The notes under the pieces were generated by a model, which saw only the letters and a list, made by a program, of their open reading frames with translations, did not search any database and was not told the origin of the DNA. Shown piece by piece: positions 1-64,000 of a stretch of 64,000 nucleotides of DNA (positions within the stretch are counted from its first letter, which is position 1; every line of letters begins with the position of its first letter). A program made the translations under genes and the position numbers. This stretch comes from Halichondria panicea. Its lineage: Eukaryota > Porifera > Demospongiae > Suberitida > Halichondriidae. The stretch spans positions 1,426,001-1,490,000 of the forward strand of contig NC_087382.1 of the NCBI RefSeq assembly GCF_963675165.1. The letters are read 5' to 3'.

Positions 1-3000
1 TCACTTGAATTGTTGGGAAATTCCAACACCTCGGTTGCACCATCAGGATAATCCAAGACCCTGTATTGCAATGCAGCAATGATAAACTGCAAGAGTTTGG
101 AATAAGAGAGTAGGACGAGTGTGCCTAGGGCAGCAACTGGGTTCCTGTTGGAGAGGAGCTTTGCAAATGAGTCAAAGTACTTGCTCAAAATGATTATTAA
201 GAACATCAAAAGAAACATGTAAGCAGGAAAGACAATCTGAAGGAGCACTTTTGCATGAGAGTTCATTCCATCATAAAAGCATGTCTCAATACCCAAGTCA
301 AGATTCACCCACGATATGAAAACTGTCAAAGGGTTATGAAAAGGTATGAAAATAGACTGATTTGCAGCTAATATATTAGTGTAGAAGATCAGCCCATGGA
401 TAGTGCCTGTTGCTATGGTAATGTTGAAAAGGAGAATGAATACAACTAGTACTATGCCTGCCAGGGCAAACGGGAGTAGCAGGAGAAGGTAAGAGTTTGA
501 ACAGAGTTCACATCTTGAAGTACCTAACACAAGACTGAGCCCTGGTTCACATTCTCCACACAAGACACCACTTCGATTGTAGGCACATTGTTCGTCAGGG
601 TTGCTTAGACTGATGTTGACTGGCTTTAGTACACAATAGTCAAATGTACAGTTACTAACAATATACCCACTTCCGTTAGTGGTATTAGTCACTCCTATCC
701 ATATGTTGTTATTGCTTTCCAGCTTTATGGTCCCATTTTCTTCAGAACAGTTTGTTATCTGCTGCAACAAGACTGGATCACAGTCACACTTGCACTCAAT
801 TGAGGACATAATTGGTTGGAGTCCAATAGGGCAATCACACTTTTGAAAAGATATGTTTAGAATTTGTTTTGAAATTCCCAAATTGTTGCATGGACCCTCA
901 GCATAGAGTTCCACTTGAGCAGAGCTGTCTTGTGAGAATACATTGTACTCTAATTCTGTGCACTGATTGCCAACTTCCTGTTGTGCTTGTCCTTCTTTGA
1001 GACGATCAACTCTACGGCTCTCAGTGATAACAGAACTGTGAATTATGGCATTATTCATTGGATTTCCAGCTTGGTCTACAGCCATAACACTGATTGTGAA
1101 TGTTGTCCTTTTCTAACAGAAATGGTCTGTTTGGTGGTGTTACACAACTTCACTCTGACAGCCTTCGAAGCTATCGATGAATAATGCACAGTATTGTTCA
1201 AGTACTCAAATCCGTTGTCTGATGAAGAGAGTTCGGCTGATACATCCACCGTACACCTGTCAAACAGACCTCCGTAAATATCTGCTCCTGACTTGAAAGC
1301 TGTGTTGTTAGTCAAAAAAGTGTTGCGATGATTAATTGATGTATTGTTCAAACACTTAAGTACTTCTTCATATGAAGACTGGGAAGTTTGCACTAAAGGT
1401 ATCAAAGTCTTAACAAAATTGATATCAAAACCATAGAGATCTTGAGTTTGAATGAAGCATTCTGTTTGTGTCAGATCTCCTGCAGTAGTTACATCCTCTC
1501 CTCTACACACACCACTCTCAGTACTGTCTGCCACAAATATCCCCCCTCCATACTGAGCCGTGTTATTGTGGATTTCCAGTATGACCAGCGTTTTACCAAG
1601 CTCTAGCTCCGAGTCCTGTTTCAAAATATATATCTTGGAACTTTGTTGTAGATACACTCCACTCCGCTATTGTTTGCCGAGTTTATTTTGATTTGGACGT
1701 AAGCGTGAGAAAAAGCCTTAATGTTTAAAGCGACTGCATAAATACCTCCTCCATTTTGAGCATCATTTCGATCTATAATACTCACAAACAGTACAGTCTC
1801 CATGTCACTACATGTACACGGGACAAAGTTATCATTAAATAAACAACCAGTAGTGACCTTCGAATCAAATTCAATTTCGCTTGAGTATGCATAAATCCCA
1901 CCACCATTGTGTGCTGTGTTGTGAGAAATCTCTATTGGATAGTGAACAAAGAGTGTACCCTCTCTCAGAAACACACCTCCTCCAACAGTAGCAGTATTGT
2001 TAGAAATGACCACTCCTTCTGCATTGATATAGATTTGACTCTGGACTGCTCTGATGGCTCCACCCTGCACACCACGATTGTTACTGAGAGTTGTGGGTCC
2101 ATTGAACTCCACTCGACTGCTTAGAGCATACACAGGGTTTACATTATTGCTAACATTGTTAACTCCCGTAAATGACAAGTTAGAATGCACTACGTAAAGG
2201 ATATTTTCACCATCTAAATTGTCAAATATGCTTGTATTAGTAATTATCAAAGTTGAGATAACAACCGTAATCACTCCATTATGCTGAGTAGCTCTGTTGT
2301 TTGTGACCACAGAGTCGGAAATGATCACAGTGCCATCAGCAACAAAAAACACTCCACCAAAGTCAGCACTGTTATTTTTAAACATGATTTTGGAGACGGA
2401 TATAGTTCCAGTATATACCAAAATCGCTCCACCAAGACTAGTTTCTCCATTATCAACTACAGCTTCATTATCTGTTATATTACAGCTCAAGATAGATGCA
2501 TCACCCGCGAAAAGTCCAATCGCTCCACCAGAGGTAGCCTTGTTGTTTGTTAGCTTGCTATCGGATATCAGTAACTCTCCAGTAAAAACCGAAATCGCTC
2601 CATCTGATCTACCAGCACTGTTGTACGCTAGCTCACTGTCGGAGATTGAGACACTCCCTCCCTGGATATTAATTGCTCCACCGTCAAGAATAGCATTATT
2701 GTTTAGTAGGGCACAGTTGGAAATGAACAAACTACTTTCGGAGGTGGAAATTGCTCCAGCACTTTCAGCAATATTATTTGTAAAGTTGCATAAACTGATA
2801 GTCACACTTGCAGAGTCCACTTCCACTGCTCCACCAAATCCAAATATAGCAGTGTTAGAATTAAACCTTGAATTTTTAATAACAGTTTGATTTGATATAA
2901 TATTATGAATTGCTCCACCACCATCATGAATAGCACTATTGCTCAGTAGTGTACAATTGGAAATGAACAAACCACTTCCAAAGGTGAAAATTGCTCCACC

Positions 3001-3867
3001 TGCTTTTTCAGCACTGTTGTACGCTAGCTCACTGTCGGAGATTGAGACACTCCCTCCCCGCCTATAAATTGCTCCACCGTCAAGAATAGCACTATTGTTT
3101 AGTAGCGCACAGTTGGAAATAAACAAACTACTTCCAAAGGTGATAATTGCTCCACCAAAATTTAATTGAGCAATATTATTTGTAAAGTTGCACCAACTGA
3201 TAGTCACACTTACAGAGTCCACTTCCACTGCTCCACCATATGCAGCAGTATTGGAATCGAATCTTGAATCATTAATAACAGTTTGATTTGATTCAATGTT
3301 CACTGCACCACCATCGTTACTGAAGAAGTCGCTCTTTTCAATGTGCACATTATCAGCTTCAACAGTCAATGCTCTGTCAGTGCTAGTGTTGTTCACAAAG
3401 AGAACTCGTTCAATCGTTACAGTTACTGTATGAGCGATCTCGAGTGTGCAAGCTTCCAACTTTAGCAATTTCAAGCCTACCAAATAGCATTGAGAAATGT
3501 ACATATAGCCTGAACTACTTTCATCACCTGCTCCAGTGAAATGCAAACCTTCGATACTCAATGCACTGATATTAGATAACAGCACTCTACCAGTTTTGAT
3601 AGTGGCATTTTGGCCAGCAATAGTCACCTCTCTGAAATTACAAATGTAAAGCATTTCACTTAATAAATGATCTCCAGGTAGAAAGCTCAAGGTGAGATTG
3701 TCTCCACCAGACAACAGGGCTGTTTGAACAAGCTGCTCGAGAGTGAAATAAGTTCCATTTTTGTAGTCATGACAAGAGTCAGCTGAATCCACTGGCACAA
3801 TGTGATAGTGCTCACTCCTGGTAACAGTAGCTAGGGTCAGTAGCAGCACCAACCAGCTGGTGTGCAT
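1..3867 (-). pseudogene. Receptor A: Pmp-like beta-helix multipass membrane protein, frameshifted, 3' end cut by window
   Basis: Reading leftwards from an ATG at 3865-3867, the protein opens with a signal peptide (MHTSWLVLLLTLATVTRS), then a long array of about 23-residue repeats with GGA[I/V] and F.[N/S]N motifs, as in chlamydial polymorphic membrane proteins and other right-handed beta-helices. Next come a Cys-rich knot (NRSGVLCGECEPGLS, about 520-600) and membrane spans running off the window. Relative to C', single-base deletions near 1658-1664 and near 1100-1110 break the frame into three pieces. Both lie in short runs of C, so true decay and consensus error are both possible. Compared with D it carries one extra 396-bp (132-residue) repeat module (offset between about 2641 and 3037). 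The C-terminal part open to base 1 contains the EVLEFPNNSS segment shared with D and E but absent from C and C'. Cell-surface location is inferred from signal peptide and spans; ligand unknown. Confidence 0.75.
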
Positions 3868-6291: not shown

Positions 6292-7203
6292 CTAGCTTAT
6301 TGACAAGAAGTCCACAGTTTGAATGTAACCACCAGTGTTTGTGTATCCTCCGGCTACAATGACCTCTCCACTAGGAAGTACTGAGCATGTGCAACTGTCT
6401 CGTGCAGTAGGCAGGTATCCCACTTTCACCCACCTACTGGTTTCAGGCTGGTAGAGGTGGATTGATGAACTTGGGTTGTCTCTGTCTTCCCATCCACCAA
6501 CGGCTAATAGTGACCTCTCAATACTGAGAGGAGCTGACAACACGAGTGGTACTTCTTGTAAGGTTTGCCAGAGAGTGGGTGTGTCCAGGTTGGAAAGGGC
6601 CTTTGCAATGAGTTTATTGAGGTTGACGTGGTGCACTGTCTTGGTTGCCCTCCCAGTGTAATCGATCCCTCCCATGAGGTAGAGGTTGTTTCCTATGAGA
6701 GTCGATTTCATTTCTGTTCGTGGGTTAGGTAGTGACTGAGCAATGTACCATTTTTTTGATGCCACGTCCAACACCTCCACAGAGGAGATACGTACTTCAT
6801 CATCATACCAACCAGCTACAATAATGTGGTTGTTGAAAGAGACAGCTATTGAGGAAGATCGAGAAATGTTCATTGGTGGATACGGATTAGTCCATTCTCC
6901 TGACTCAAAAACAGCAAGTTGGTTGATTCGTTTGTTGTTTCTTGGATCACGTCCTCCCACCAGCACTAGTCGATTAGCGAGTGATGTCATAGCAAAGTAC
7001 TTGGAAGTGTACTCTGGTAGTTTGGTCCATTGATCTTGCTCGAGCTTCATCACTGTACGATCTTTGCCTGCATGCCCTCCACCAACATACACCGTATTAC
7101 CGATAACAACACTCTGTACTGAAGTGCCCATCTTGATTGGCATGTCTTTTCCTCTTCTCCATTTCAGAGTGATTGGAGGTCTCAACTCTCTGGGAGGGGG
7201 ACC
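6292..7203 (-). CDS. Kelch-repeat exon, intact, 303 codons
   Basis: One open exon from the acceptor at 7203/7204 to the stop at 6292. It contains about six kelch blades, each with the double-Gly signature followed by a Tyr/Trp-bearing strand: VYVGGGHAG, LVLVGGRDP, IIVAGWYDD (one Gly replaced), LYLMGGIDY, LLAVGGWED and VIVAGGYTN. It would fold as a beta-propeller protein-interaction module. It is the C-terminal exon of the kinase-kelch gene, unlike whose kinase exon it shows no lesion, so either decay is recent or a kinase-less transcript is still used. Confidence 0.8.
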   Translation of the reverse strand, partial: GPPPRELRPPITLKWRRGKDMPIKMGTSVQSVVIGNTVYVGGGHAGKDRTVMKLEQDQWTKLPEYTSKYFAMTSLANRLVLVGGRDPRNNKRINQLAVFESGEWTNPYPPMNISRSSSIAVSFNNHIIVAGWYDDEVRISSVEVLDVASKKWYIAQSLPNPRTEMKSTLIGNNLYLMGGIDYTGRATKTVHHVNLNKLIAKALSNLDTPTLWQTLQEVPLVLSAPLSIERSLLAVGGWEDRDNPSSSIHLYQPETSRWVKVGYLPTARDSCTCSVLPSGEVIVAGGYTNTGGYIQTVDFLSIS

Positions 7204-13260: not shown

Positions 13261-13414
13261 TCATGCATGCATGCTTTGTAGGTACATGCAATAATTATGT
13301 CATCATTTATTTTGATGCAATAACAACTGTTAATTATTATCAAAAATCAATGACTGCGGGGTAAAGTAACTTGTATAGTGTGCATGTGTCTATTAATTTA
13401 ATTAATACCACACA

Positions 13415-13862
13415 GTGCGAATCCAGGAATTTTGAGAGGGAGGTTCCAAAACTAAAAAAAAGGGGTCATCACTTTTCCTAAACAATGAGCATTAGAGAGC
13501 CGGCGGACATATCAATTGCAAGACATCAGCCTATATAGTAACTATGTACAGATCATGATCATTCAAGCTGAGTTAGCTAGTTGCTATAGCTAGTACGTTG
13601 ACTACAGTGTGTTCTTGTGTGAAAGGGGAGTTTCAGGGAACCCATGGAACCTGTCTGGATCCGCCACTGCCACAATCAAAGCTACGGAGGGAGAGGATTA
13701 AATGTAAAACTGAATGGCAAAGCAAATAATTAGACACTTATACCCAACAAGCGAGAAATTCCATTGACCACACTTATAAACTATTGCTACGTTATTGCTA
13801 TACAAGTAAATTAATTGTTTTGGAATTACCTCCCTCTCAAATTTCCTGGATCCGCCACTGTG
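13415..13862. mobile_element. Second hAT-like MITE, shared by both duplication copies
   Basis: Its ends read cagtg.gaatccaggaattt and aaatttcctggatccgccactg, flanked by gagaggga blocks in inverted orientation. An additional internal terminus (ctggatccgccactg at about 13655-13669) suggests a nested or composite element. The corresponding copy at 48903-49343 shows that it predates the duplication. Confidence 0.7.
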
Positions 13863-14410
13863 TGGTATGTATACTTTTATAGAGCAAAGTGTAATAATTA
13901 TGCAGCTGTGTAATCAAAACGCCTGGCTTGCAAGACTATATATAATTATATAGGCATGTACTAGCCGTATTATATATCAGTATACTTCCCTGATAATACG
14001 GCCAAGGGTCGTGTACCTCTATACTGCTCTTATACCTCTTCAATTTACTGTAATAATTATGCTGATCTAGTTTGAATTAAGTGCATGCTCTATATAGGTA
14101 TTAGAAAGTGGAACACAATTAATTATCTTTTTCTCATAATTATTTCGATCACACAAGTACAAGACAACTGTCTTGTGTGATCAAAGAGAGAGCGTTAATG
14201 GACTTGGGAACAGACATGTTATGGCTTGTATAATGAATATAATTATAGAGAGTGTATACTGATCGACACGTACCTCTTTTGGAGCACATGCACTCTCATC
14301 ACTTTACATATGAAAGTATAACAGTACATGTAGCTATTGGTCTGCATGGCTTCTACGAGACTACCTCCCATGTTAGAACTATAATAAACATAGAGCCAGA
14401 GGAGGTCAAC
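13863..14410. other. Non-coding spacer with small palindrome
   Basis: No gene recognised. An 11-bp inverted repeat (gatcacacaag / cttgtgtgatc) lies at about 14148-14182. The short ORF at 14252-14467 is carried in both duplication copies without other coding evidence and ends inside a MITE. Confidence 0.5.
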
Positions 14411-14522
14411 ACACGAGTACCTCGATTAGGGATTAGGCTTGGTCACGTGCAAAATAACAGTAATTAAAATTAAAGTTGTGGTTGCAATTTTAGCCTAATT
14501 GAGGTACTCGTGTCGGACCTCC
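14398..14522. mobile_element. Short MITE with 25-bp inverted ends
   Basis: The ends (gaggtcaacacacgagtacctc and gaggtactcgtgtcggacctc) pair with few mismatches around a core of about 75 bp. A same-sequence copy is at about 49882-50006 in duplication copy 2. Confidence 0.6.
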
Positions 14523-14587
14523 GCTGACATTTATAGAGCACTGCCTTCTTAAATTAGTTGGGCGTGGCCCGTCCTAGCCTCAAACCT

Positions 14588-14780
14588 CCTCCTTATAAGG
14601 TGACATGTTTTCGCGGGTATTAATTTCCGCTATTTCAATTCTGTGTAGTCGCAGGTAATTGGCAGTGAATACCACTTGCAAAAATTATAGTTAATTTTAC
14701 AACTTGAGTAGAATTTAATACCAGCAAAATAATCTAAAACAGTGAAATCGCAAACAAGTGAAAATATGTCACCTTATAGG
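14588..14780. mobile_element. MITE with TATAAGGTGACAT ends
   Basis: Inverted termini cttataaggtgacat and atgtcaccttatag bracket about 190 bp containing fragments such as cgcgggtattaatttccgc that resemble the small palindrome at 36890-36970. Copied at about 50072-50264. Confidence 0.6.
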
Positions 14781-14960
14781 CATATATAGGTCAATTTTTC
14801 CCAGTTTGGAGAAAATTGGTTAGAATGAGCATTTTTTGAGAGACAAATAATACATTATTATGCTGTGATGTCAATCTTCTTACATAACGGTTCACGTGAC
14901 AGGTACTTCCGTATTGACATTGCAGTTGCAAGAACTCTGACCCTGCAAATCCCTGTAGAT
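14776..14960. repeat. Dispersed repeat (aggtcaatttttcccagttt ... aactctg)
   Basis: A related copy lies in reverse orientation at about 33250-33420 (ctgggaaaaattcgacc, ggttcacgtgacagg equivalents), a shorter one at 35605-35665 and the duplication copy at 50260-50440. The cores gttcacgtgacagg.acttccg and aactctg are shared. Confidence 0.6.
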
Positions 14961-15045
14961 AATTATACCCTATACCATAATTATGCATGTATACAAAATG
15001 TATAATCAATCAATATTAAGATTTGGGAAGGAAATGAATTGACAA

Positions 15046-48902: not shown

Positions 48903-49343
48903 GTGGCAGATCCAGGAATTTTGAGAGGGAGGTTCCAAAACTAAAAAAAAGGGTCATCACTTTTCCAAAACAATGAGCATTAGAGAGCCTGTGGACATAT
49001 CAATTGCAAGACATCAGCCTAGTAACTATGTACAGATCATGATCATTCAAGCTGAGTTAGCTAGTTGCTATAGCTAGTACGTTGACTACAGTGTGTTCTT
49101 GTGTGAAAGGGGGGTTTCAGGGAACCCATGGAACCTGTCTGGATCCGCCACTGCCACAATCAAAGCTACGGAGGGAGAGGATTAAATGTAAAACTGAATG
49201 GCAAAGCAAATAATTAGACACTTATACCCAACAAGCGAGAAATTCCATTGACCACACTTATAAACTATTGCTACGTTATTGCTATACAAGTAAATTAATT
49301 GTTTTGGAATTACCTCCCTCTCAAATTTCCTGGATCCGCCACT
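48903..49343. mobile_element. hAT-like MITE, counterpart of 13415-13862
   Basis: Same sequence and ends (agtggcagatccaggaattt ... cctggatccgccactg), at the same place in copy 2. Confidence 0.7.
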
Positions 49344-50545
49344 GTGTGGTATGTATACTTTTATAGAGCAAAGTGTAATAATTATGCAGCTGTGTAATCA
49401 AAACGCCTGGCTTGCAAGACTATATATAATTATATAGGCATGTACTAGCCGTATTATATATCAGTATACTTCCCTGATAATACGGCCTAGGGTCGTGTAC
49501 CTCTATACTGCTCTTATACCTCTTCAATTTACTGTAATAATTATGCTGATCTAGTTTGAATTAAGTGCATGCTCTATATAGGTATTAGAAAGTGGAACAC
49601 AATTAATTATCTTTTTCTCATAATTATTTCGATCACACAAGTACAAGACAACTGTCTTGTGTGATCAAAGAGAGAGCGTTAATGGACTTGGGAACAGACA
49701 TGTTATGGCTTGTATAATGAATATAATTATAGAGAGTGGATACTGATCGACACGTACCTCTTTTGGAGCACATGCACTCTCATCACTTTACATATGAAAG
49801 TATAACAGTACATGTAGCTATTGGTCTGCATGGCTTCTACGAGACTACCTCCCATGTTAGAACTATAATAAACATAGAGCCAGAGGAGGTCAACACACGA
49901 GTACCTCGATTAGGGATTAGGCTTGGTCACGTGCAAAATAACAGTAATTAAAATTAAAGTTGTGGTTGCAATTTTAGCCTAATTGAGGTACTCGTGTCGG
50001 ACCTCCGCTGACATTTATAGAGCACTGCCTTCTTAAATTAGTTGGGCGTGGCCCGTCCTAGCCTCAAACCTCCTCCTTATAAGGTGACATGTTTTCGCGG
50101 GTATTAATTTCCGCTATTTCAATTCTGTGTAGTCGCAGGTAATTGGCAGTGAATACTACTTGCAAAAATTATAGTTAATTTTACAACTTGAGTAGAATTT
50201 AATACCAGCAAAATAATCTAAAACAGTGAAATCGCAAACAAGTGAAAATATGTCACCTTATAGGCATATATAGGTCAATTTTTCCCAGTTTGGAGAAAAT
50301 TGGTTAGAATGAGCATTTTTTGAGAGACAAATAATACATTATTATGCTGTGATGTCAATCTTCTTACATAACGGTTCACGTGATAGGTACTTCCGCATTG
50401 ACATTGCAGTTGCAAGAACTCTGACCCTGCAAATCCCTGTAGATAATTATACCCTATACCATAATTATGCATGTATACAAAATGTATGTTCAATATATAA
50501 TCAATCAATATTTAGATTTGGGAAGGAAATGAATTGACAATTTAA
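49344..50545. repeat. Copy-2 spacer with MITEs matching 13863-15045
   Basis: Contains the counterparts of the 14398-14522 MITE (about 49882-50006), the 14588-14780 MITE (about 50072-50264) and the dispersed repeat at 50260-50440. No gene supported. Confidence 0.65.
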
Positions 50546-50830
50546 CTCTATATATACTGTGATTAACTGTGAAAAGGTGTATGTGTATATACACACACGT
50601 CAATATACTGTACCATTATCAACATGAGTAATTACATAATAGATTACAGCTAATAACAAGGTCCAACGTATACGAAATTATGGTACTAGAGCACACATTT
50701 CTCTGGCTCCCCATGCTAACTGGACCAATGGGACGTACAATATGGTCAAGTATTGGTTGAAATCAGACAAACAAGATGTAACCATGCAATCAATAATATT
50801 TTGATTTCGGGAATTGACAATTTCTTGCTA
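50546..50830 (+). repeat. One decayed first-exon unit upstream of B'
   Basis: Counterpart of the units at 15046-15658, but present once instead of twice. Confidence 0.7.
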
Positions 50831-50953
50831 TATACTCTGATTAACCATGAAAAGGTACTTTTATACGTAAAAAAATCTACAGTGTACCATAAAATCAAAA
50901 CCTATAAAAACTATAATTATAGACCAGCAAGGTCAGACGTACGAAACGTAATA

Positions 50954-53900
50954 ATGATCATCATGACTACTGTGGCACAGTTTTCTTCGCTCATTCTTCT
51001 ACTCTCTCTGACTCTGACCTCCCCCGCTAACTGCTGGACCAATGGGACGACAGTCGAGTATTGGGTGAGACCAGACACAATGTCAGAGTGCCCCCACTCC
51101 ATACCACCACACCAGTGTGTCACTATAACAGATCTGGTGACTAACTCCACAGACACAAGCATCAATGATGGTATGAGTATCAATGTATTCTTCATAGCTG
51201 GGACTCATGTTCCAAAAACGAATGGTTGGATTGTTGTCGGAAATCCTTATTTAGATCAGGAAGTATCAGCAACTGTTGCAGCAATTTCAGATGGACAAAA
51301 CCAACAAAATGTTATAATTGATTGTGAGTCAGGTCACCCAATTAGCTTCGTGTTTCTTCAACTTCTATCTTTAACTTTGAAAAACGTCGAGCTACAAAAT
51401 TGTGGTTTTAAACTACACTTTAATACGAGGGGTAACTCAACTATTCTGGATGAAACCACATCATCAGTAGTAGCCATGGACGTACCCGAGCTGGTAATTG
51501 CTAACATCAATATCACTAACAGCAGAGGAGCTGGCATGGTCATTATTCTGAAGAAATTCGACAAAAATGTCAACATTAACCGTTTAATGCTAAATGAAAT
51601 TGTCATACACGGTAGAAATCATACTGGAAATAAGTTTGTAGGCAACTTGCACGTAATGTTCAGTGCGTCTGAAAATAATACACTTAAGAAACCCACGATT
51701 TTCTCAATAAAAAATTCTATATTTTCAAATGGAATTGGTAGGTGCTCAAAATTTGCAAATTGCTCTTCCGGTGGACTAACAATTTCTATGGTAAACTTAC
51801 ATAATGTAAGTGTATTGATAAACAGGTGCAAATTTATAGGCAATAAAGCTTATAGTGGCGGTGGTATCGGATTGTTCATAGACGAAGGTATTCATAGTTC
51901 GAATCACATTCATATCACCAAGTCAATATTTTCAAGGAATACAGCTGTTAGAAATGGTGGTGGGCTTGCAATAGAGAGTGATGATTTTCTGTATCACAAT
52001 AATATAATGTTACATGTGAATATATCGGAAACAGTGTTCAGTTATAACTCGGCTGAATTTGGTGGTGCAGCATACACTTCATTTACACAGTCTTTTGACA
52101 ATTGTACTTTCATAGGCAATGAAGCTAGACTTGGAGCAGCTGTCTATTCAGACGAGTATTATGATATCGACTTGAGCCAGTACCATCAACAAATCAGTAA
52201 TTGCACATTCATACACAACACATGCAAGATAAATACAAATGAAGAGACAAAGGAAACTGGTACAATTCATGTCATAATACGTGATGATTATCTGTTCATA
52301 AAAGATGTTGAAATTATAGGCAATGATTGTAGAGGTATTTACGTTTATGACACGGACCTAGTACTGTCTGGAACAAGCGTAATTAACGGTAACCATGCTC
52401 ACCAGTCAGATGGCGGGGCTATCCTGTTTGAATGTTCAACGGATAGTAATATACTGGTAGGAATTGATATACTGTCACTCACTAGCCTCAGGATAATCAA
52501 CAACACAGCAGCTGGTTATGGTGGTGGTATTGCAATTCGTAATTGTGAGGATGTTATTAATGAATGTATTTTTAGCCAACCAACAGATAAAATAACAATT
52601 AGTATGAAACACAACACAGCGACGCAGGGAGGTGATGCAATTTATGGAGGCCAACTAGAAGACTGTAAATTGTGGGACATTGTTGATATCATGGAGAGAA
52701 ATACATCATCAGCTGTTTCCTCTCCTCCCAACGAAGTGTGTATTTGCTCTGACGACTTCCCACAGAAACACACTTGTTCACACTTCATGCAACTAGACAT
52801 TTATCCAGGACAGAGGTTCCATATTCCACTAGTGTGTGTTGGGCAGTACAACTATTCCTCCCCTTGCAAAGTACAAGCACATTTACAGATGACAAGTTTC
52901 GCAAACATTGCTGAAGAAACAATCCTTCAAAACATCGCCAAAGAATGCAAGCAACTGTACTACTCAATAGAAACTCAACAAACAAACTATACTGAAACAC
53001 TGTATCTAACAATAGTCGGCCAGGAAGTACAGTCTTATTACGAATGGATCTTTCTAAATATTGAGATTAGAATTAAAGCATGTCCACCTGGTTTTATAAC
53101 AAACTTCAATGCCAAAAAATGCATCTGTACAGAATATCTAGCGTCTAATGGAATCACATGCAACATTGACGATGAGCGACTGCACAAGACGTCCTCCATG
53201 TGGGTTGGCACCTATTCAGAGGGCGTTGTTGTGCATCAAGTCTGTCCATTTGATTACTGTAAGAGCAACTTCACTAAAGTCGATCCCTTCAACCAGCAAG
53301 AACAGTGTGACTTTAATCGCAGTGGTGTACTGTGTGGAGCTTGTCGACCTGGGCTCAGTCTAGCCCTGGGTACATCGCAGTGTAAAGAGTGCTCTAATAT
53401 CAACCTTCTCTTATTGATACTATTTGCACTGGCAGGAGTCGTCTTGGTTGTCCTTTTACTCAAATGTAACCTCACTGTTTCCACGGGAACTATCAATGGT
53501 CTCATCTTTTACGCCAACATCGTACGATCCACACAAACTGCTTTCTTTCCGTCCAACACTGATAACAAATTTGTCAGCATTATCTCTGTCTTTATTGCCT
53601 GGTTGAACCTTGACCTGGGCATAGAAACATGTTTTGTGAATGGACTCAACACATACTATCGTACATGGCTACAATTTATCTTTCCTCTGTACATTTGGAC
53701 AATAGTAGGCCTGCTAATCTTAATCAGCCGCTACTCTATCAAAGTCTCTAAATGGACGGGCTCAAACACAGTATCAGTTCTAGCTACACTCTTCCTACTA
53801 TCGTACGCTAAACTATTGAGGACTACTTTCGATACCTTTTCATCGACCACTCTCATCAATGTCAACGGTACGCCCATCACCCTCTGGCTGCTCGATGGCC

Positions 53901-54622
53901 GCTACACATTCCTCGAGTGGCCGCACAGCTTGCTCTTTGCAGCTGGCCTGTTCATATTATTAGCACACATACTGCCATTCACTATCCTGTTATTAATGGC
54001 CCCGATTCTGCAGCGATACACACACTACAAGTTATTACGATGGGTAAACAAGTTAAAGCCTCTACTGGATGCTTATCAAGGTCCTTACGGAGTCAAGTCT
54101 CGCTATTGGACTGGACTACTGCTGCTAGGTAGGCTCGTTATACTAACAGCTGTGTCTTTAAATGTGTCTGGAAAACAAGCCATCAATTTGCTAGTGATAA
54201 TCATAGTATTGTCTATTTTAAGGATAATATTGATGGCATTCGGAATAACAATTAAGCTCTATACAAGCAAACTATCAAACTTCCTGGAGCTATTTTTTCT
54301 GGCAAATCTTCTGCTACTAACTGCCACATCACTGTTTCTGCAGTCAAACCAGACTGATAAAATCAGCGGACAAAGTATAACAATCTGTTGTATGGTGGGT
54401 AGTGCATTCGTTATGTGTGGCCTCATCTTAGCCTATCACTGCTACGTTATGTGTCAGAGAATAGAAGCCATCAAGCGGCTAACATCAAGAGTTGTTTCCT
54501 CTCTAAAAGGGCCTCGGAATCGAGCACTAACTAACGATGACATCATATGTGTCCCCCCACATAGCACACCCCCCACAGTCACAGAGGTTGATTTGAGGGA
54601 ACTGCTACTAGAGGATAACTAA
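50954..54622 (+). CDS. Receptor B': beta-helix multipass membrane protein, 1222 residues
   Basis: Near-identical to B with the same start (MIIMTTVAQFSS), signal peptide, beta-helix array, Cys-rich knot, eight to ten spans and RELLLEDN end. Reading the two genes side by side I find seven replacement changes (F/V and A/V near residue 105-125, M/T, K/E, S/N, E/K and T/I near residue 980) and three silent ones. Six of the seven replacements are in the extracellular part. No lesion. It converges on C'. Confidence 0.85.
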   Translation: MIIMTTVAQFSSLILLLSLTLTSPANCWTNGTTVEYWVRPDTMSECPHSIPPHQCVTITDLVTNSTDTSINDGMSINVFFIAGTHVPKTNGWIVVGNPYLDQEVSATVAAISDGQNQQNVIIDCESGHPISFVFLQLLSLTLKNVELQNCGFKLHFNTRGNSTILDETTSSVVAMDVPELVIANINITNSRGAGMVIILKKFDKNVNINRLMLNEIVIHGRNHTGNKFVGNLHVMFSASENNTLKKPTIFSIKNSIFSNGIGRCSKFANCSSGGLTISMVNLHNVSVLINRCKFIGNKAYSGGGIGLFIDEGIHSSNHIHITKSIFSRNTAVRNGGGLAIESDDFLYHNNIMLHVNISETVFSYNSAEFGGAAYTSFTQSFDNCTFIGNEARLGAAVYSDEYYDIDLSQYHQQISNCTFIHNTCKINTNEETKETGTIHVIIRDDYLFIKDVEIIGNDCRGIYVYDTDLVLSGTSVINGNHAHQSDGGAILFECSTDSNILVGIDILSLTSLRIINNTAAGYGGGIAIRNCEDVINECIFSQPTDKITISMKHNTATQGGDAIYGGQLEDCKLWDIVDIMERNTSSAVSSPPNEVCICSDDFPQKHTCSHFMQLDIYPGQRFHIPLVCVGQYNYSSPCKVQAHLQMTSFANIAEETILQNIAKECKQLYYSIETQQTNYTETLYLTIVGQEVQSYYEWIFLNIEIRIKACPPGFITNFNAKKCICTEYLASNGITCNIDDERLHKTSSMWVGTYSEGVVVHQVCPFDYCKSNFTKVDPFNQQEQCDFNRSGVLCGACRPGLSLALGTSQCKECSNINLLLLILFALAGVVLVVLLLKCNLTVSTGTINGLIFYANIVRSTQTAFFPSNTDNKFVSIISVFIAWLNLDLGIETCFVNGLNTYYRTWLQFIFPLYIWTIVGLLILISRYSIKVSKWTGSNTVSVLATLFLLSYAKLLRTTFDTFSSTTLINVNGTPITLWLLDGRYTFLEWPHSLLFAAGLFILLAHILPFTILLLMAPILQRYTHYKLLRWVNKLKPLLDAYQGPYGVKSRYWTGLLLLGRLVILTAVSLNVSGKQAINLLVIIIVLSILRIILMAFGITIKLYTSKLSNFLELFFLANLLLLTATSLFLQSNQTDKISGQSITICCMVGSAFVMCGLILAYHCYVMCQRIEAIKRLTSRVVSSLKGPRNRALTNDDIICVPPHSTPPTVTEVDLRELLLEDN

Positions 54623-55188
54623 TCATTGACTAACATTGCACGCACATGCAGAGATAGATAAAACACTTAATTTAGCTAGTGTATTGGCAAAAAATAAGTA
54701 CCCTCACAATTGTCACACACACAGTGTACTCTCACCTTCTGACACAATAACACGATTTACATGTTTTGAGAAATTGATTTATTTGGGGACACGTATAGAT
54801 CTATATACATGCATATACAGGCTCTTACTAAGGGGCAAATAGTTATATGAGAGAGCAGCTGCTTCAGAACACTGTTGCACATTCATTTGCTGTCATACAA
54901 CCAAACAATATCACTTGTATTGTCAACTCATATTAATCAATGGAACAGTTAGTCTCATGTTGCTTGGTCTGGATCTCACCCAAAATACTAGATTAGATAT
55001 TTTTGTCTGTTGGCTATAATTATAATTGAGAGTTTGACGTGTGTTATCTTGTGGACAGTAATTAGCTACAGTCACATCACAAATCATAATAACAGCTAGC
55101 AGAGAATAATTAAAACTAGTAAAACAGCAATGAATATTGTAATCAGCAATTATATCATTCTAATCTAAGTGTGTACCTCAGCTACAGT
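54623..55188. other. 3' intergenic region between B' and C'
   Basis: Counterpart of 19445-20009 with a few substitutions; no gene. Confidence 0.6.
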
Positions 55189-58100
55189 TTAGACTTTATT
55201 ATGTATGGGACCAATTTCTGTGCATGTAACAGCAGGACGATGGTTGACTCTTGTAGGGGGAGGGGCTGGTCTGTAGTCCTCTGTGGTGAGGGGGGCTAGC
55301 TCATCCATGTAGGGTAATATCATCTGGTCTGGCCTCGTGGCTGGTCTGATGATGGGAGGAGTGATGTAACAATCAGGGTCAGCTTCTTCCATGACTCCAT
55401 CATGATCAGTGTAAGGTGGGTTCAAGGCATCTCTTTGTTCATAGTCGTCTACTGCTTTGAGTAATTCATTATCATCATTTTCATCGGCTACCAGCTGCTG
55501 ATACATTTCCCGACCATTGCTAGCTCGTCTGACTACAACATTAGCTCCTAAATTCCTTATGGTGTCTTCTATCTTCAGCCATGTATTAATATTCTTGAGT
55601 ACGAATTGGTAAAAATGGTAGCAGAGGGTTATTGCAAAGATGACAAAGGATATAGCCATCGAAGTATTGGCTAGGGCTGACTGATTTTTTCTGGTATCTT
55701 TGACAAAGGAGGTGCCAAATGCTAGACAAACAATATTGAGTAGATAAAGAGTTTCGAGGGAATCACGGATTTTGTTTTTGTACAAACGATTGTTCAGTAA
55801 TTTCCAGCTGATCAGTCCAACTGATAGAACACCAGCTGATAGAACAGGGAGAGAAGTGTCCAAAGCCAGAGCAGTTATTATATTATGAGCGATAAAAGAA
55901 AATAGGAGCAGTCCCACCCAGTAGCGATGTTTGGGCGTGAATGGAGCATAGTATGCATCCATGAAGCCAATGTACTTCGTGTTCTTAGTCCATTTCATGA
56001 GTTTCCATTTTGAGCAGCGAGGAAACCATTGTCCAAAGAAGAGCACCACAGTGAACACTACACCAGAAATGAGGATTATGGCGGCAAAAACAAACCGAGG
56101 GATGTGACCGGAAGTGAAATATTGCACATTGCCGTCATACATCCAAACTATATCACTTGTACCATCAGGATAATCCAAGACCCTGTGTTGCAGTGCAGCA
56201 ATGATAAACCGTAAGAGTTTGGAATAAGAGAGTAGGACGAGTGTGCCTAGGGCAGCAACTGGATTCCTGTTGGAGAGGAGCTTTGCAAAAGAGTCAAAGT
56301 ACTTGCTCACAATGATTATTAAGAACATCAGAAGAAACAGGTAAGCAGGAAAGACAATCTGAAGGAGCACTTTTGCATGAGAGTTCATTCCATCATAAAA
56401 GCATGTCTCAATACCCAAGTCAAGATTCACCCACGATATGAAAACTGTCAAAGGGTTATGAAAAGGTATGAAAATAGACTGATTTGCAGCTAATATATTA
56501 GTGTAGAAGATCAGCCCATGGATAGTGCCTGTTGCTACGGTAATGTTGAAAACGAGAATGAATACAACTAGTACTATGCCTGCCAGGGCAAACGGAAGTA
56601 GCAGGAGAAGGTAAGAGTTTGAGCAGAGTTCACATCGTGATGTACCTAACACAAGACTCAGTCCTGGTTCACATTCTCCACACAAGACACCACTTCGATT
56701 GTAGTCACACTGTTCGTCAGGGTTGCTTAGACTGATGTTGACTGGCTTTAGTACACAATAGTCAAATGTACAGTTACTAACAACATACCCACTTCCGTTA
56801 GTGGTATTAGTCACTCCTATCCATATGTTGTTATTGCTTTCCAGCTTTATGGTCCCATTTTCTTCAGAACAGTTTGTTATCTGATATTCTTGTTGCAAGA
56901 CTGGATCACAGTCACACTTACACTCAATTGAGGACTGAATTGGTTGGAGTCCAATAGAGCAATCACATTTTTGAAAATATATGTTTAGAATTTGTCTTGA
57001 AATTCCCAAATTGTTGCATGGACCCTCAGCATAGAGTTCCACTTGAGCAGAGCTGTCTTGTGAGAATACATTGTACTCTAATTCTGTGCACTGATTGCTA
57101 ACTTCTTGTTGTGCTTGTCCTTCTTTGAGACGACCAACTCCACTCTCAGTGATAACAAAACTGTGAATTGTGGCATTAATCATTGGATTTCCAGCTTGGT
57201 CTACAGCCATAATACTGATTGTGAATGCTTGTCCCTTTCTAACAGAAATGGTTTGCTTGGTGGTGTTACACAACTTCACTCTTACAGCCTTCGAAGCTAT
57301 CGATGAATAATGCACAGTATTGTTCAAGTACTCAAATCCATTGTCTGATGAAGAAAGTTCGGCTGATACATCCACCGTACACCTGTCCAACAGACCTCCG
57401 TAAATATCTGCTCCTGACTGGGAAGCTGTGTTGTTGGTCAAAAAAGTGTTGCAATAATTGATTGACTTATTATTTAAACACTTAACTTCTTCAGATGAAG
57501 ACGGAATACCTTGGAGCAAATTTAGCACGATCTTAATAAAATTGATATCAAAACCATACAGATTTAGAGTTTGAATGAAGCATTCTGTTTGTGTCAGATC
57601 TCCTGCAGTAGTTACATCCTCTCCTCTACACACACCACTCTCAGTACTGTCTGCCACAAATATCCCCCCTCCATATTGAGCCGTGTTATTCTGAATTTCT
57701 AGTATGACCAGCGTTTTACCAAGCTCTAGCTCCAAGTCCTGTTTCAGAATATATATCCTGGAGCTTTGCTGTAGATACATTCCACCTCCGCTATTGTTTG
57801 CTGAGTTTGACTTGATTTGGACGTGAGCGTGAGAAAAAGCCTTAATGTTTGAAGCGACTGCATAAATACCTCCTCCATTTTGTGCATCATTTCGATCTAT
57901 AATACTCTCAAACAATACAGCTTTCATGTCACTACATGTACACAGGACAAACTGACGATTAAGTAAACAACCAGTAGTGACCTTCGAATCAAATTCAATT
58001 TCGCTTGAGTATGCATAAATCCCACCACCATTGTGTGCTTTGTTATGAGAAATCTCTATTGGATAGTGAACAAAGAGTGTGCTCTCTCTCAGAAACACAC

Positions 58101-59637
58101 CTCCTCCAACAGTAGCTATATTGTTAGAAATGACCACTCCTTCTGCATTGATATAGATTTGACTCTGAACTGCTCTGATGGCTCCACCCTGCACACCACG
58201 ATTGTTACTGAGAGTTGTGGGTCCATTGAACTCCACTCGACTGCTTAGAGCATACACAGGGTTTACATTATTGCTAACATTGTTAACTCCCGTAAATGAC
58301 AAGTTAGAATGCACTACGTAAATGATATTTTCACCCTCTAAATTGTCAAATATGCTTGTATTAGCATTTATTAAAGTTGAGATAACAACCGCAATCACTC
58401 CATCTTGTTGGGTGGCTCTGTTATTTGTGAGCAGAGAGTCGGAAATGATCACAGTGCCATCAGCAACGAAAAATACTCCACCAATGTCAGCACTGTTATT
58501 TTTAAACATGACTTTGGAGACAGATATAGTTCCAGTATATACCAAAATCGCTCCACCAGAGGGTGCCTTGTTGTTTGTTAGCTTGCTATTGGATATCAGT
58601 AACTCTCCATTCAAAACCAAAATCGCTCCACCTGATCTTTCAGCACTGTTGTACGCTAGCTCACTGTCGGAGATTGAGACACTCCCAAACCAGATATTAA
58701 TTGCTCCACCGTCACGAATAGCACTATTGTTTAGTAGCACACAGTTGGAAATGAACAAATTAGTTCTGAAGGTGGAAATGGCTCCACCATATTCAGCGAT
58801 ATTATCCATAAAGTTACAGAAACTGATTGAAACATTAACTGCCGAAATACCGCCACCACTATAATAAAAATCACTGGCATAAATCGCTCCACCGCTGTAA
58901 TAAACGCTATTATTTGTAAAGTTGCACCAACTGATAGTCACACTTGAAGAGGCCACCGCCACTGCTGCACCATATGTAGTACCAGTATTGGAAGTGAATC
59001 TTGAATCATTAATAACAGTTTGCTTTGAGTAAATGTAAACGGCACCACCATTGTTATTAAAGAAATCACTCTTTTCAATGCACACAGTATCAGCTTTAAC
59101 ATACAATGCTCTGTCAGTGCTAGTGTCGTTTACAAAGAGAACTTGTTCAATTCTCACAGTTACCACATGAGTGATCGTGGTGATCCAGAGTGTACAAGAT
59201 TCCAACTTTAGCAATTTCAAGTCTACCAAAGAGCATTCATCGATATATAATTCTTGAGAAATGTAGCCTGAACTTTTTTTATCACCTGCTCCTGTGAAAT
59301 TCAAACCTTCAATACTCAATGCACGGATATTAGATAAATACACTGCTCTACCAGTTGTGTTGGCATTGATAGTGGCATTTTGGCCAGCAATAATCACCTC
59401 TCTGAAATTACAAATGTAAAGCATTTCACTTAATAAATGATCACCAGACAGAAAGCTCAAGGTGAGTTTGTCTCCACCAGACAACAGGTCTGTTTGAACA
59501 AGCTGCTCGAGAGTGAAACAAGTTCCATTTTGGTAGTCATTACACGAGTCAGTTGAATCCACTGGCACAATGTGATAGTGCTCACTCCTGGTAACAGTAG
59601 CTAGGGTCAGTAGCAGCACCACCCAGGTGCAGTGCAT
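55189..59637 (-). CDS. Receptor C': intact Pmp-like beta-helix multipass protein, 1482 residues
   Basis: This is the reference member. Signal peptide 1-18 (MHCTWVVLLLTLATVTRS); beta-helix array about 60-700 with repeats such as GGAIYAS, GGAISTF, GGAINIW, GGAILVL, GGGVFLR, GGGIYAY and GGGIFVA, each followed by a FxxN-type turn; a less repetitive beta-rich domain about 720-930; Cys-rich knot about 930-1005 (ECKCDCDPV, CDYNRSGVLCGECEPGLS); eight to ten spans about 1007-1342 including HRYWVGLLLFSFIAHN; a cytoplasmic tail of about 138 residues with YQQL, EEADPD, YITPPIIRPATRP and LAPLTTEDYRPAPPP. Tyr and Pro-rich motifs suggest SH2/SH3 or WW-type partners, by inference. AATAAA overlaps the last codons. 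It is a single exon, convergent with B'. The GGA/FxxN pattern is established for chlamydial Pmps; the multipass anchor is not a Pmp feature. Confidence 0.9.
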   Translation of the reverse strand: MHCTWVVLLLTLATVTRSEHYHIVPVDSTDSCNDYQNGTCFTLEQLVQTDLLSGGDKLTLSFLSGDHLLSEMLYICNFREVIIAGQNATINANTTGRAVYLSNIRALSIEGLNFTGAGDKKSSGYISQELYIDECSLVDLKLLKLESCTLWITTITHVVTVRIEQVLFVNDTSTDRALYVKADTVCIEKSDFFNNNGGAVYIYSKQTVINDSRFTSNTGTTYGAAVAVASSSVTISWCNFTNNSVYYSGGAIYASDFYYSGGGISAVNVSISFCNFMDNIAEYGGAISTFRTNLFISNCVLLNNSAIRDGGAINIWFGSVSISDSELAYNSAERSGGAILVLNGELLISNSKLTNNKAPSGGAILVYTGTISVSKVMFKNNSADIGGVFFVADGTVIISDSLLTNNRATQQDGVIAVVISTLINANTSIFDNLEGENIIYVVHSNLSFTGVNNVSNNVNPVYALSSRVEFNGPTTLSNNRGVQGGAIRAVQSQIYINAEGVVISNNIATVGGGVFLRESTLFVHYPIEISHNKAHNGGGIYAYSSEIEFDSKVTTGCLLNRQFVLCTCSDMKAVLFESIIDRNDAQNGGGIYAVASNIKAFSHAHVQIKSNSANNSGGGMYLQQSSRIYILKQDLELELGKTLVILEIQNNTAQYGGGIFVADSTESGVCRGEDVTTAGDLTQTECFIQTLNLYGFDINFIKIVLNLLQGIPSSSEEVKCLNNKSINYCNTFLTNNTASQSGADIYGGLLDRCTVDVSAELSSSDNGFEYLNNTVHYSSIASKAVRVKLCNTTKQTISVRKGQAFTISIMAVDQAGNPMINATIHSFVITESGVGRLKEGQAQQEVSNQCTELEYNVFSQDSSAQVELYAEGPCNNLGISRQILNIYFQKCDCSIGLQPIQSSIECKCDCDPVLQQEYQITNCSEENGTIKLESNNNIWIGVTNTTNGSGYVVSNCTFDYCVLKPVNISLSNPDEQCDYNRSGVLCGECEPGLSLVLGTSRCELCSNSYLLLLLPFALAGIVLVVFILVFNITVATGTIHGLIFYTNILAANQSIFIPFHNPLTVFISWVNLDLGIETCFYDGMNSHAKVLLQIVFPAYLFLLMFLIIIVSKYFDSFAKLLSNRNPVAALGTLVLLSYSKLLRFIIAALQHRVLDYPDGTSDIVWMYDGNVQYFTSGHIPRFVFAAIILISGVVFTVVLFFGQWFPRCSKWKLMKWTKNTKYIGFMDAYYAPFTPKHRYWVGLLLFSFIAHNIITALALDTSLPVLSAGVLSVGLISWKLLNNRLYKNKIRDSLETLYLLNIVCLAFGTSFVKDTRKNQSALANTSMAISFVIFAITLCYHFYQFVLKNINTWLKIEDTIRNLGANVVVRRASNGREMYQQLVADENDDNELLKAVDDYEQRDALNPPYTDHDGVMEEADPDCYITPPIIRPATRPDQMILPYMDELAPLTTEDYRPAPPPTRVNHRPAVTCTEIGPIHNKV

Positions 59638-59655
59638 GTTCTCTCCGATACTATA
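59638..59655 (-). promoter_or_regulatory. Conserved leader before C' ATG
   Basis: The same 18 bases as before A, C and D (tatagtatcggagagaac on the minus strand). Confidence 0.4.
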
Positions 59656-60151
59656 AGATTACAAGCTAATCCGGCAGTGTCAGAATAGTGCTATTGCTTC
59701 TTCTATATACTGTATATCATCTATAGAGTGGAATAAGATAGCGGTCACCAGCAATTGATATTATGAGGCTCAAATTCTTATCAGTCATTACACTTAGTTT
59801 GCACAGTTATAACTTACCTAATCGATTTCCCTTTTCAGCTTACAAGATCCAAACACAGTCTCACATGCACGTGTGAATACAGTAGTGGAGTATAGAGGTA
59901 GGACTATATATTAGGCCAAAGGGTATAGTATCACTGCATGCAGTAGAGCTGTCATCAGATACAAGTCCAAAGCACACACAAAAAATTCCTAATAGGATTA
60001 CATGTATAGAGATGTTGTTATAGTTCAGACAACCCAATTAGTAGCTGCTTCCCAAGGGAGAAGTGCATGTATATAGTGTAATACGTTTACATGCTTATAG
60101 TATACATACTATATAGATCTACGACCTGTGTTTTTAAGCACACTCCCATGC

Positions 60152-60255
60152 ATATTTCCCTACAATCTGCTATATTTCCTTACAATCTGCCGTATTTCCT
60201 TACAATCTGCCATATTTCCTTACAATCTGCTATATTTCCCTACAATCTGCCATAT
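60152..60255. repeat. 20-bp minisatellite, copy 2
   Basis: Five units as at 24975-25078, with one unit differing by a single base (ccttacaatc versus ccttccaatc). Homology between the duplication copies ends in its last unit. Confidence 0.85.
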
Positions 60256-61154
60256 TCCAGTGCTTCCGTGCAGAGGGTATATTGTTGCAGAAAATACGAT
60301 TATTCTGTCTTTAGTGCAATAAATGTGCGCATGTTCAAAGTGCCATTATATAGCATTATATATCACAAAATCAGTTCAATCACTTCAAGTAAAGCGATAA
60401 TATAAACTGTGCGACAGTTCAAGATATTAATTGATTACACTCAACCATAGGTCAACTAATAATATGCACAAAGCAGACACTGTAAATACTGAATACATAT
60501 ATTCAAATTCAACATTAACTTTAGGTTCCCCTCATGAAATGGCCAGTAACTTCGTCAGCAGTATGATGCTTCCATTGAACATAAAATTAATGTTTGAATT
60601 AGGAATAGAGTAACCAATACCAACCGTCTTGTTTACCTTTTGGTGGCTCTGCCAATGTACCCTTCGATCCCTCCATTTCTCACAAAATGTTTTGAATGTG
60701 GAGTGATTATTGATGCAAGGACAAAACTAATTGCCTGCATGAAACAAAAAGAGTTTTCATAACCTCTTTTTGTTATTGTTGCATTTTGAGTGGGCAGATC
60801 AAAGGAAACACTGTGCCAATATCTGCCATATGGCACAGGTCAAGCCCTGAACTGTGCCACTATCTAGATACTGGCATAGTATGGCTGAAGTTACCTAAAG
60901 CCCACCGTCCACCAAGTAACCTGAAACTGTCCCTTTTATAGTATAACACTGTTAAACAGATTCAGTGGTAGGCAGAAAACGTTTTTCATGCATCTGGAGC
61001 ATTCCACAGCCACCACAAGTAGTTGAAACTAGTAGTCCTATAAAAGGAGTGATGTGTACACGGAAAGGAATGCACAAGGAATGCAACAAATCAGTTGTTA
61101 TACACAGCTCACTTGTGCGCACATGGGATATATTGGCTCATAATATGTACAAGA
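60256..61154. other. Unique spacer, nothing recognised
   Basis: Sequence after the duplication end. Short ORFs (60431-60613, 60836-60633) show no domain or splice support. Confidence 0.5.
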
Positions 61155-62664: not shown

Positions 62665-64000
62665 TTACTCTTTCACGACATCGATGACAGTGTGCGTAAC
62701 TTTGGGTGCATTGTCTTGAGGAGGGGGAGGGGCTGGTCTGTAGTCCTCCGTAGTGAGAGGGGCTAGCACGTCCAGGGCAGGCTCTCTCAGCTGTTCCGGC
62801 CTTGTGGCTGGTCGGATGATGGGAGGAGTGATGTAACGATCAGGATCAGCTTCTTCCATGACTCCATTAGTGTACGGATCATATCTGTCCACGTTTGTCC
62901 AGGTTTCTTTGTGGTTTTTCTTCTCCAGTTCCAGTTTGCGAACTCGTGGAATCATTTTTCTTAGTCTGAGTGCATTTTGCTGCCTCTGCAGAACAGGAAC
63001 TTTCTTCAGTATGTACTCGTAAAAGTGGTAGCAAACTATCACCACAAACAAAATAAAAGTCACTGCCATTGAAATGTTGGATATTATGTCTTGATTCCCA
63101 TTGATGTTTCCTATGTAGAGGGTGCCATATGCTAGAATTGCAAGATTGAGGAAAAAGAGTGTTTCCAGTAAATCATTGAATCGTATTTTGTACACTGCAT
63201 AATTCTGCAATTTGAAAATATTAAGCCCAACACTTATAGATCCAGCTGATAGTACGGGGAGAGAAGTGTCTAAAGCCAAAGCAGTTATTAGATTATGAGC
63301 GATCAAAGAAAATAGGAGCAGTCCCACCCAGTAGCGATGCTTGGGAGTGAATGGAGCATGGTATGCATCCATGAAACCATTGTAGTATGTGTTCTTAGTC
63401 CATATCATGAGTTTCCGTTTTGAACAGCGAGGAAACCATTGTCCAAAGAAGAGCAGTACAGTGAACAATATACCAGAGATGAGGATTATGGCGGCAAAAA
63501 CAAACCGAGGGATGTGACCGAGAGTGAAATATTGCACATTGCCGTCATACAACCAAACTATATCACTTGAATTGTTGGGAAAATCCAACACCTCGGTTGC
63601 ACCATCAAGATAATCCAAGACCCTGTATTGCAGTGCAGCAATGATAAACTGCAAGAGTTTGGAATAAGAGAGTAGGACGAGTGTGCCTAGGGCAGCAACT
63701 GGGTTCCTGTTGGAGAGGAGCTTTGCAAATGAGTCAAAGTACTTGCTCAAAATGATTATTAAGAACATCAAAAGAAACAGGTAAGCAGGAAAGACAATCT
63801 GAAGGAGCACTTTTGCATGAGAGTTCATTCCATCATAAAAGCATGTCTCAATACCCAAGTCAAGATTCACCCACGATATGAAAACTGTCAAAGGGTTATG
63901 AAAAGGTATGAAAATCGACTGATTTGCAGCTAATATATTAGTGTAGAAGATCAGCCCATGGATAGTGCCTGTTGCTATGGTAATGCTGAAAAGGAGAATG
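62665..64000 (-). CDS. Receptor E: C-terminal half of a further family member, 5' part outside the window
   Basis: The frame is open from the right edge (SITIATGTIHGLIFYTNIL, then FISWVNLDLGIETCF) through the membrane spans to the stop at 62665. It carries the EVLDFPNNSSDIVWLYD insertion shared with A and D. Its last third differs from C' (SVGLNIFKLQNYAVYKIRF; tail start KKVPVLQRQQNALRLRKM), but it keeps the C-terminal block EEADPD, YITPPIIRPATRP, LAPLTTEDYRPAPPP, then ends VIDVVKE. The contrast of a diverged juxtamembrane tail with a conserved distal block argues that the distal block is functional. No lesion in the visible part. Confidence 0.85.
   Translation of the reverse strand, partial: ILLFSITIATGTIHGLIFYTNILAANQSIFIPFHNPLTVFISWVNLDLGIETCFYDGMNSHAKVLLQIVFPAYLFLLMFLIIILSKYFDSFAKLLSNRNPVAALGTLVLLSYSKLLQFIIAALQYRVLDYLDGATEVLDFPNNSSDIVWLYDGNVQYFTLGHIPRFVFAAIILISGILFTVLLFFGQWFPRCSKRKLMIWTKNTYYNGFMDAYHAPFTPKHRYWVGLLLFSLIAHNLITALALDTSLPVLSAGSISVGLNIFKLQNYAVYKIRFNDLLETLFFLNLAILAYGTLYIGNINGNQDIISNISMAVTFILFVVIVCYHFYEYILKKVPVLQRQQNALRLRKMIPRVRKLELEKKNHKETWTNVDRYDPYTNGVMEEADPDRYITPPIIRPATRPEQLREPALDVLAPLTTEDYRPAPPPPQDNAPKVTHTVIDVVKE

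Follow-up and report, generated by a model that had tools for sequence, protein, structure and literature searches.

A cluster of predicted beta-helix, multipass membrane proteins in the sponge Halichondria panicea and the larger family to which it belongs

What are proteins that join an outer part built of chlamydial-type Pmp repeats to a membrane base of many hydrophobic segments, and why should a sponge carry several such loci side by side? The question is raised by a stretch of 64,000 nucleotides of the demosponge Halichondria panicea (contig NC_087382.1, positions 1,426,001 to 1,490,000 of the forward strand), which was analysed in full and is referred to below as the window. A sequence-only reading had described it as a cluster of seven tailed receptors forming a candidate diversifying recognition family. 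We confirm seven related loci, A1 to A5 on the minus strand and B1 and B2 on the plus strand, with limits and breaks defined by tblastn, but they turn out to be only a minor part of a superfamily of some 200 places or more, its merged loci lying on 17 contigs. We consider the existence of this genome-wide family and its basic anatomy (signal peptide, beta-helix, Cys domain, spans and tail) to be very probable. The reading of the whole that we favour, a lineage-expanded family of sensory or pattern-recognition surface receptors in which turnover supplies new specificities, seems to us about evenly poised between right and wrong.

Predicted anatomy of the proteins

Three of the seven loci (A4, B1 and B2) are intact, each with one open frame that runs unbroken between signal peptide and stop. 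The intact copies share a layout of signal peptide, Pmp-type beta-helix repeats, Cys domain, about nine spans and tail, which the earlier description had extended to all seven; A3, however, lacks the later spans and the tail, and A2 has lost its tail by frameshift. The seven had also been taken as one family, and related they are, but A4 and B2 are only 36% identical in the membrane region and the A and B tails differ. The broken locus A1 still has a signal peptide, a beta-helix with extra rungs, a Cys domain and spans. For A1 and A5, the ends beyond the window edges were taken from the adjoining sequence of the contig.

The Pmp-like character of the outer part is upheld by library matches. 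Chlam_PMP scores 44.6 bits in A4 and 27.2 bits in B2 (Pfam cut-off 20.6), and POMP_repeat scores 30.3 and 21.5, respectively (NCBIfam cut-off 15). In the outer part of A4, the GG[AGIV]-hydrophobic motif occurs 18 times (on average 0.7 and at most 6 times in 2000 shuffles) and the hxxN motif 22 times (at most 20 in shuffles); the best self-identity of this part is at a lag of 26 residues. A 78-bp tandem repeat in A1 likewise has a period of 26 codons and is read as extra beta-helix rungs, in keeping with the repeat-module change noted before. Motif counts in B2 do not exceed those of shuffled sequences (GG, 4 against a maximum of 4; hxxN, 12 against a maximum of 17). The beta-helix prediction is thus graded: well founded for A, moderately so for B, and no more than likely for the distant lineages. 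The first 1000 residues contain 28 N-glycosylation sequons in A4 and 19 in B2, where this stretch takes in some of the spans.

Between outer part and membrane lies the Cys domain. Of 15 chosen lineage representatives, 14 have 11 cysteines in the 140 residues before the spans, and the other has 12. Hydropathy over 24 aligned members gives ten segments above threshold, of which two are single columns, together with 11 local peaks. Taking loop charges into account, we read this as about nine spans with the N-terminus outside and the tail inside, within the range of eight to ten proposed earlier. The family alignment has invariant residues at W261, N263, D265, G267, W356, D359, H369, D417, W430, G432, E490 and N496, and a nearly invariant L264; the family's membrane motif is written W-x-N-[LF]-D-x-G. 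The window copies carry this motif and the Cys domain, the predicted hallmarks of the genome's beta-helix/nine-span superfamily. No Pfam family covers the spans of A4, B2, A5 or the 24 aligned members at E <= 1, and no PDB chain matched the spans or the outer parts by sequence, or the spans by profile.

The tails separate the lineages. Of the 27 non-A loci examined, 26 have a REPLLE-like motif near the C-terminus. The motif is also present in 14 of the 15 representatives, compared with 0.16 expected in shuffled tails; the patterns used were composed after inspection of the tails. The A clade has a long Pro-rich tail in its place. The motif matches neither consensus of the canonical acidic dileucine signals and is hence named by its letters only; it may act in sorting or effector binding.

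Copies across the genome and their turnover

The search covered 131 Mb. A degenerate DNA pattern for one membrane motif occurs at 215 places, compared with none for the reversed control, and a pattern for a second motif at 152 places, compared with four. The search with the membrane part of A4, in which 75 of 546 candidates were scored, gave 77 rows, and contig C6 holds most of them; that with B2, in which 73 of 477 were scored, gave 73 rows spread over many contigs between C1 and C17. Merging both with the first 100 of the 215 motif places yields at least 183 loci, distributed over 17 contigs; of these 100 places, 65 fall within protein matches, and 35 are known by the motif alone. The 100 listed of the 152 second-motif places add 19 loci, for a total of about 202, although both totals may hold a few split genes or chance motif matches. 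Open frames of at least 1400 amino acids without a stop were found in 47 of 75 A4-search rows (two second pieces excluded), and of at least 1100 amino acids in 59 of 73 B2-search rows (A4 included), and many copies are therefore whole and intronless. All in all, the genome has roughly two hundred or more family places, mostly intronless. It also holds four Wnt genes (our own grouping of ten matches), three of them in pieces across separate frames and the fourth inside one frame; Wnt genes are not known outside animals, and a number as low as this fits a sponge.

Some places stand apart. Two members on C6 (3203752-3205497 and 4707465-4709168) have far longer open frames, of 2847 and 2206 amino acids, perhaps reflecting expanded outer parts or fused copies. 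Seven motif-pattern places at 5.03-5.12 Mb of C3 were listed by neither the A4 nor the B2 protein search and perhaps represent a further subgroup.

The arrangement of the copies speaks for local duplication. In the window, the segments at 13.26-25.08 and 48.73-60.26 kb are 98.7% identical over a main piece of 9.8 kb, and a second segmental duplication links A1 and A3 at 96%, so that the segmental duplication claimed for this locus is real at the level of the assembly. The convergent B/A cassette occurs five times within 0.21 Mb of C6 (at 1.27, 1.39, 1.417, 1.444 and 1.479 Mb). At the DNA level, identity among its B loci is 92.2-99.7%, the copies at 1.39, 1.444 and 1.479 Mb being 99.6-99.7% identical; B1 and B2 share 99.4% of their protein sequence. 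On C6 as a whole, 74 of 86 loci have a neighbour inside 20 kb (uniform mean 31, maximum 48). The nearest neighbour in the tree lies less than 200 kb away for 37 of 57 loci, compared with a shuffled mean of 3.1 and a maximum of 10; this test used 57 of 62 loci, leaving out L002, L003, L010, L042 and L044 for motif or length and keeping near-identical copies.

Duplication was apparently followed by exchange. Synonymous divergence (dS) within the duplicated block is 0.0036 for B1/B2 compared with 0.028 for A2/A4 (Fisher p 6e-5). The A2/A4 differences are concentrated at 22.0-23.0 kb (30 of 1002 sites), where both variants are also present in other paralogues, and gene conversion would be the simplest reading of this patch. 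A1 and A5 are 92-99% identical to A4 up to codon ~1250 (A1 measured over codons 830-1250), then fall to 71-72, 59 and 49-50%, and return to 76-78% after codon 1400. The abrupt drop in the last spans would reflect exchange with another subtype; no donor was found, and the tree of the C-terminal part puts these spans on a long branch beside L004. Local fast divergence may also have produced the drop, since identity recovers beyond it. Mosaic patches as such, whatever their origin, are thus present as described, as are pseudogenes, in the form of the broken loci A1, A3 and A5. The one frameshift of A2 falls in a T7 run and could be a sequence error.

Together, as far as can be judged from the nucleotides, these comparisons show growth of the family by tandem and segmental duplication, with variant patches common to paralogues. 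The window (Table 1) is a hotspot of this turnover, combining a repeated B/A pair, conversion patches and gain of beta-helix rungs.

Table 1. Family loci, protein parts and duplication features of the window (window numbering)
Feature	Position	Strand	Remarks
A1, broken A-type gene	to 3867; 3' end left of window, to about -879	minus	two frameshifts
78-bp (26-codon) tandem repeat in A1	2918-3157	none	60% matches
Segmental duplication, copy 1	13261-25078		B1 + A2 convergent cassette
B1, intact single-exon B-type gene	15782-19444	plus	tblastn
A2 tail remnant	20013-20435	minus	out of frame
A2, A-type gene	20396-24460	minus	one frameshift; frame lost in last span
20-bp minisatellite	24974-25078		edge of copy 1, where A3 is truncated
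A3, broken A-type gene	25061-28513	minus	two stops; signal peptide frameshifted; lacks the final ~313 residues
Segmental duplication, copy 2	48732-60256		B2 + A4
B2, intact single-exon B-type gene	50960-54622	plus	about 1220 amino acids
B2 Cys domain	53078-53401	plus	alignment; limits from landmarks
B2 predicted multipass region	53402-54439	plus	about 9 spans by hydropathy; N-out/C-in by loop charge
B2 C-terminal RELLLE motif	54596-54613	plus	REPLLE-like motif kept between lineages
A4, intact single-exon A-type gene	55189-59637	minus	1482 amino acids
A4 Pro-rich A-type cytosolic tail (predicted)	55192-55599	minus	
A4 predicted multipass region	55600-56610	minus	alignment, hydropathy
A4 Cys domain	56611-56967	minus	alignment; limits from landmarks; weak DUF7630 match
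A4 predicted beta-helix outer part	57358-59460	minus	limits approximate; Chlam_PMP, POMP_repeat, motif counts
20-bp minisatellite	60151-60256		edge of copy 2
A5, broken A-type gene	62665 to about 67455, past right edge	minus	two frameshifts and a stop

Other features lie between the family members, all open frames among them on the minus strand. A 297-amino-acid Kelch-repeat frame occupies 6292-7185, an open frame of 640 amino acids for a pogo/Tc-type transposase with HTH_psq and DDE_1 domains 30899-32821, and a fragment of a retroelement reverse transcriptase (RVT_1) 34666-35589. A frame of 250 amino acids at 37755-38507 has no Pfam match above cut-off. A 102-bp repeat at 36248-36453, in two copies with 100% matches, is either very recent or an assembly effect.

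Selection and the possible role of the family

The outer and membrane parts of the proteins evolve at different rates. Ratios of nonsynonymous to synonymous substitution (dN/dS) were computed from motif-bearing open frames of more than 600 amino acids only. For B (7 sequences, 21 pairs, the near-identical L035 kept), dN/dS falls from 0.76 and 0.64 in the two helix blocks to 0.59 in the middle, and further to 0.30 for the Cys domain and 0.26 for the spans. For A (231 pairs, without L029), the helix has 0.43 and 0.38 and the spans 0.19 and 0.27, while the middle has 0.43, the Cys domain 0.31 and the tail 0.39. At dS of 0.1-0.3, the A helix has 0.65 (70 pairs) and the spans 0.25 (80 pairs, not the same ones), with A2 counted twice in this binned analysis (also as L029). 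By these estimates, dN/dS is about 1.5-3 times as high in the outer part as in the spans. Purifying selection on the membrane part is clear, while the outer part is fast but rarely above 1, and there is hence no case for positive selection.

A recognition function, whether sensory or directed at microbes or particles, falls in our judgement slightly short of an even chance. The beta-helix would bind varied external ligands, such as chemicals or the surfaces of food particles or microbes, and the Cys domain would couple it to the membrane part. The conserved spans and tail would signal, or carry the bound receptor inward, and turnover of copies would provide new specificities. We are more tentative about a further step, which we rate as possible but rather doubtful: that the family is a separate, undescribed, non-GPCR (G protein-coupled receptor) class of animal surface receptors, with some two hundred genes or more, most of them intronless, serving as the animal's main repertoire for distinguishing food, symbionts and microbes. 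Such a class would set a beta-helix on a nine-span signalling base, with the REPLLE-like C-terminal motif outside the A clade, and would renew its specificity by gain and loss of rungs, gene conversion and segment exchange. A repertoire of this size, with a fast outer part and a fixed base, is a direct candidate for symbiont and food discrimination in a nerveless filter feeder.

Several results weigh against the receptor reading or its premises. The beta-helix and the number of spans rest on repeats and hydropathy, and the repeat evidence is weak in distant lineages: Chlam_PMP passes its cut-off in two of nine distant lineages scanned (L055 and L057), four (L047, L048, L058 and L064) have sub-threshold Chlam_PMP or Beta_helix matches, and three (L050, L054 and L062) have neither match at E <= 0.01. 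Among 15 representatives, motif counts exceed all 500 shuffles in three (GG) and two (hxxN). As to selection, dN/dS of the A helix goes down to 0.37 at dS of 0.6-1.2. Windows of thirty codons, which leave out the N-terminal ends of most copies, have a ratio of nonsynonymous to synonymous differences (pN/pS) above 1 in only two of 37 cases for B (codons 121-1220) and none of 37 for A (codons 391-1482). The diversification claimed in the sequence-only reading therefore stands as a faster outer part, but hardly as pN/pS above 1, and relaxed constraint could explain it, given the few windows above 1 and the falling A-helix values. Moreover, dS in the B helix (0.31 and 0.27) is about twice that in the spans (0.15), so that conversion or unequal exchange also shapes the contrast between helix and spans, and synonymous sites are saturated in distant B-type pairs (202 and 248 of 300 pairs; wide B set without B1, L036 and L037).

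Relaxed constraint is also what the strongest rival requires. It takes the proteins to be adhesion, mechanosensing, channel or transporter proteins with a large glycosylated outer stalk and no recognition specificity, which we consider unlikely, though less so than the remaining rivals. The many sequons, the polar residues conserved inside membrane segments (N263, D265, E490 and N496) and the outer pN/pS, mostly below 1, are consistent with it, but some two hundred copies that arise and decay in tandem arrays are what one would sooner expect of a receptor repertoire, and a change in rung number would alter a binding surface. Searches for TRP/polycystin-like channel domains gave no Pfam match at E <= 1 and no PDB match by sequence or profile.

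The gene clusters of allorecognition were the model offered earlier for this locus. Under this hypothesis, proteins on two individuals or cells would bind one another by their outer beta-helices, and the family would provide individual-specific labels. The duplication, conversion and mosaic patches of the window would suit such a role, as would the fast outer part, but the loci are scattered over 17 contigs rather than gathered in one complex, pN/pS is seldom above 1, and no Ig-like, Calx-beta or other domain known from such systems was matched in A4, B2 or A5, the three window proteins scanned, at E <= 1. Allorecognition is thus not specifically supported, and we regard it as improbable.

Even less probable is an artefact in which the copies at 13-25 and 49-60 kb are two haplotypes misplaced in tandem. 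An identity of 98.7% fits the heterozygosity range of such animals, and three B copies are nearly identical; the five cassette copies, however, form a graded series and not a two-allele pattern, which disfavours a simple haplotig artefact. Descent as relics of an amplified bacterial, chlamydia-like Pmp gene, for which the above-cut-off repeats speak, is very improbable: no autotransporter-barrel or Pmp middle-domain match was found in Pfam at E <= 1, hydrophobic helices stand where a barrel is expected, none of 43 pattern stretches in prokaryote species genomes or of 14 in IMG/VR could be confirmed as a relative of the membrane part, and the repeat is short enough to have arisen by convergence. 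The A4 protein had no relatives in the phage collection searched either. Matches to Pmp in such animals, then, need not mean bacterial contamination.

Comparison with known systems

Neither the libraries nor the limited literature searched contained a described family with both a beta-helix outer part and a multipass base, and a limited collection of papers on sponge Pmp-type proteins, intronless receptor expansions and DUF7630 had nothing on the family. The combination is therefore unusual, as had been remarked, with respect to those libraries, but within this genome it recurs many times. Similar unnamed proteins occur in sponges; none was returned by any of the searches. The family may be among this sponge's larger surface-protein families, and the libraries searched assign it no function.

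DUF7630 (PF24633), a domain with no assigned function, weakly matches the Cys-rich stretch just before the spans, leaving the spans themselves uncovered. Four places in the genome score 27.6-27.9 bits (cut-off 27), the window proteins stay below it (14.2 and 10.5 bits), and 13 of the 24 aligned members match at E <= 1, with a best value of 4e-05. Chlamydial Pmp proteins have the same rung repeats, a beta-helix passenger and an expanded family of paralogues, as here. The sponge family differs from them, besides the missing barrel and middle domain, in its approximately nine hydrophobic spans and cytosolic tail and in belonging to an animal genome, as the Wnt genes attest.

In its dynamics, the family resembles the chemoreceptor arrays of insects and nematodes, which likewise form large tandem arrays of multipass proteins, marked by gene birth and death and by numerous pseudogenes; the likeness is one of description, and those receptors lack large beta-helix outer parts. 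In architecture, adhesion GPCRs are similar, with a large outer part on a multipass base and a lineage-specific expansion in a sponge. Amphimedon has 40 of them, and the terms "beta helix", "polymorphic" and "intronless" are absent from the main text of the paper that describes these sponge GPCR expansions (PMC4302439). No Pfam match to the seven-transmembrane families (rhodopsin, adhesion, glutamate and frizzled) was found in A4, B2, A5 or the 24 aligned members at E <= 1. The family is set apart from adhesion GPCRs by its roughly nine predicted spans, by genes that mostly consist of a single exon, and by a Cys domain in the place where GAIN, the adhesion GPCR domain (not matched here), would be expected.

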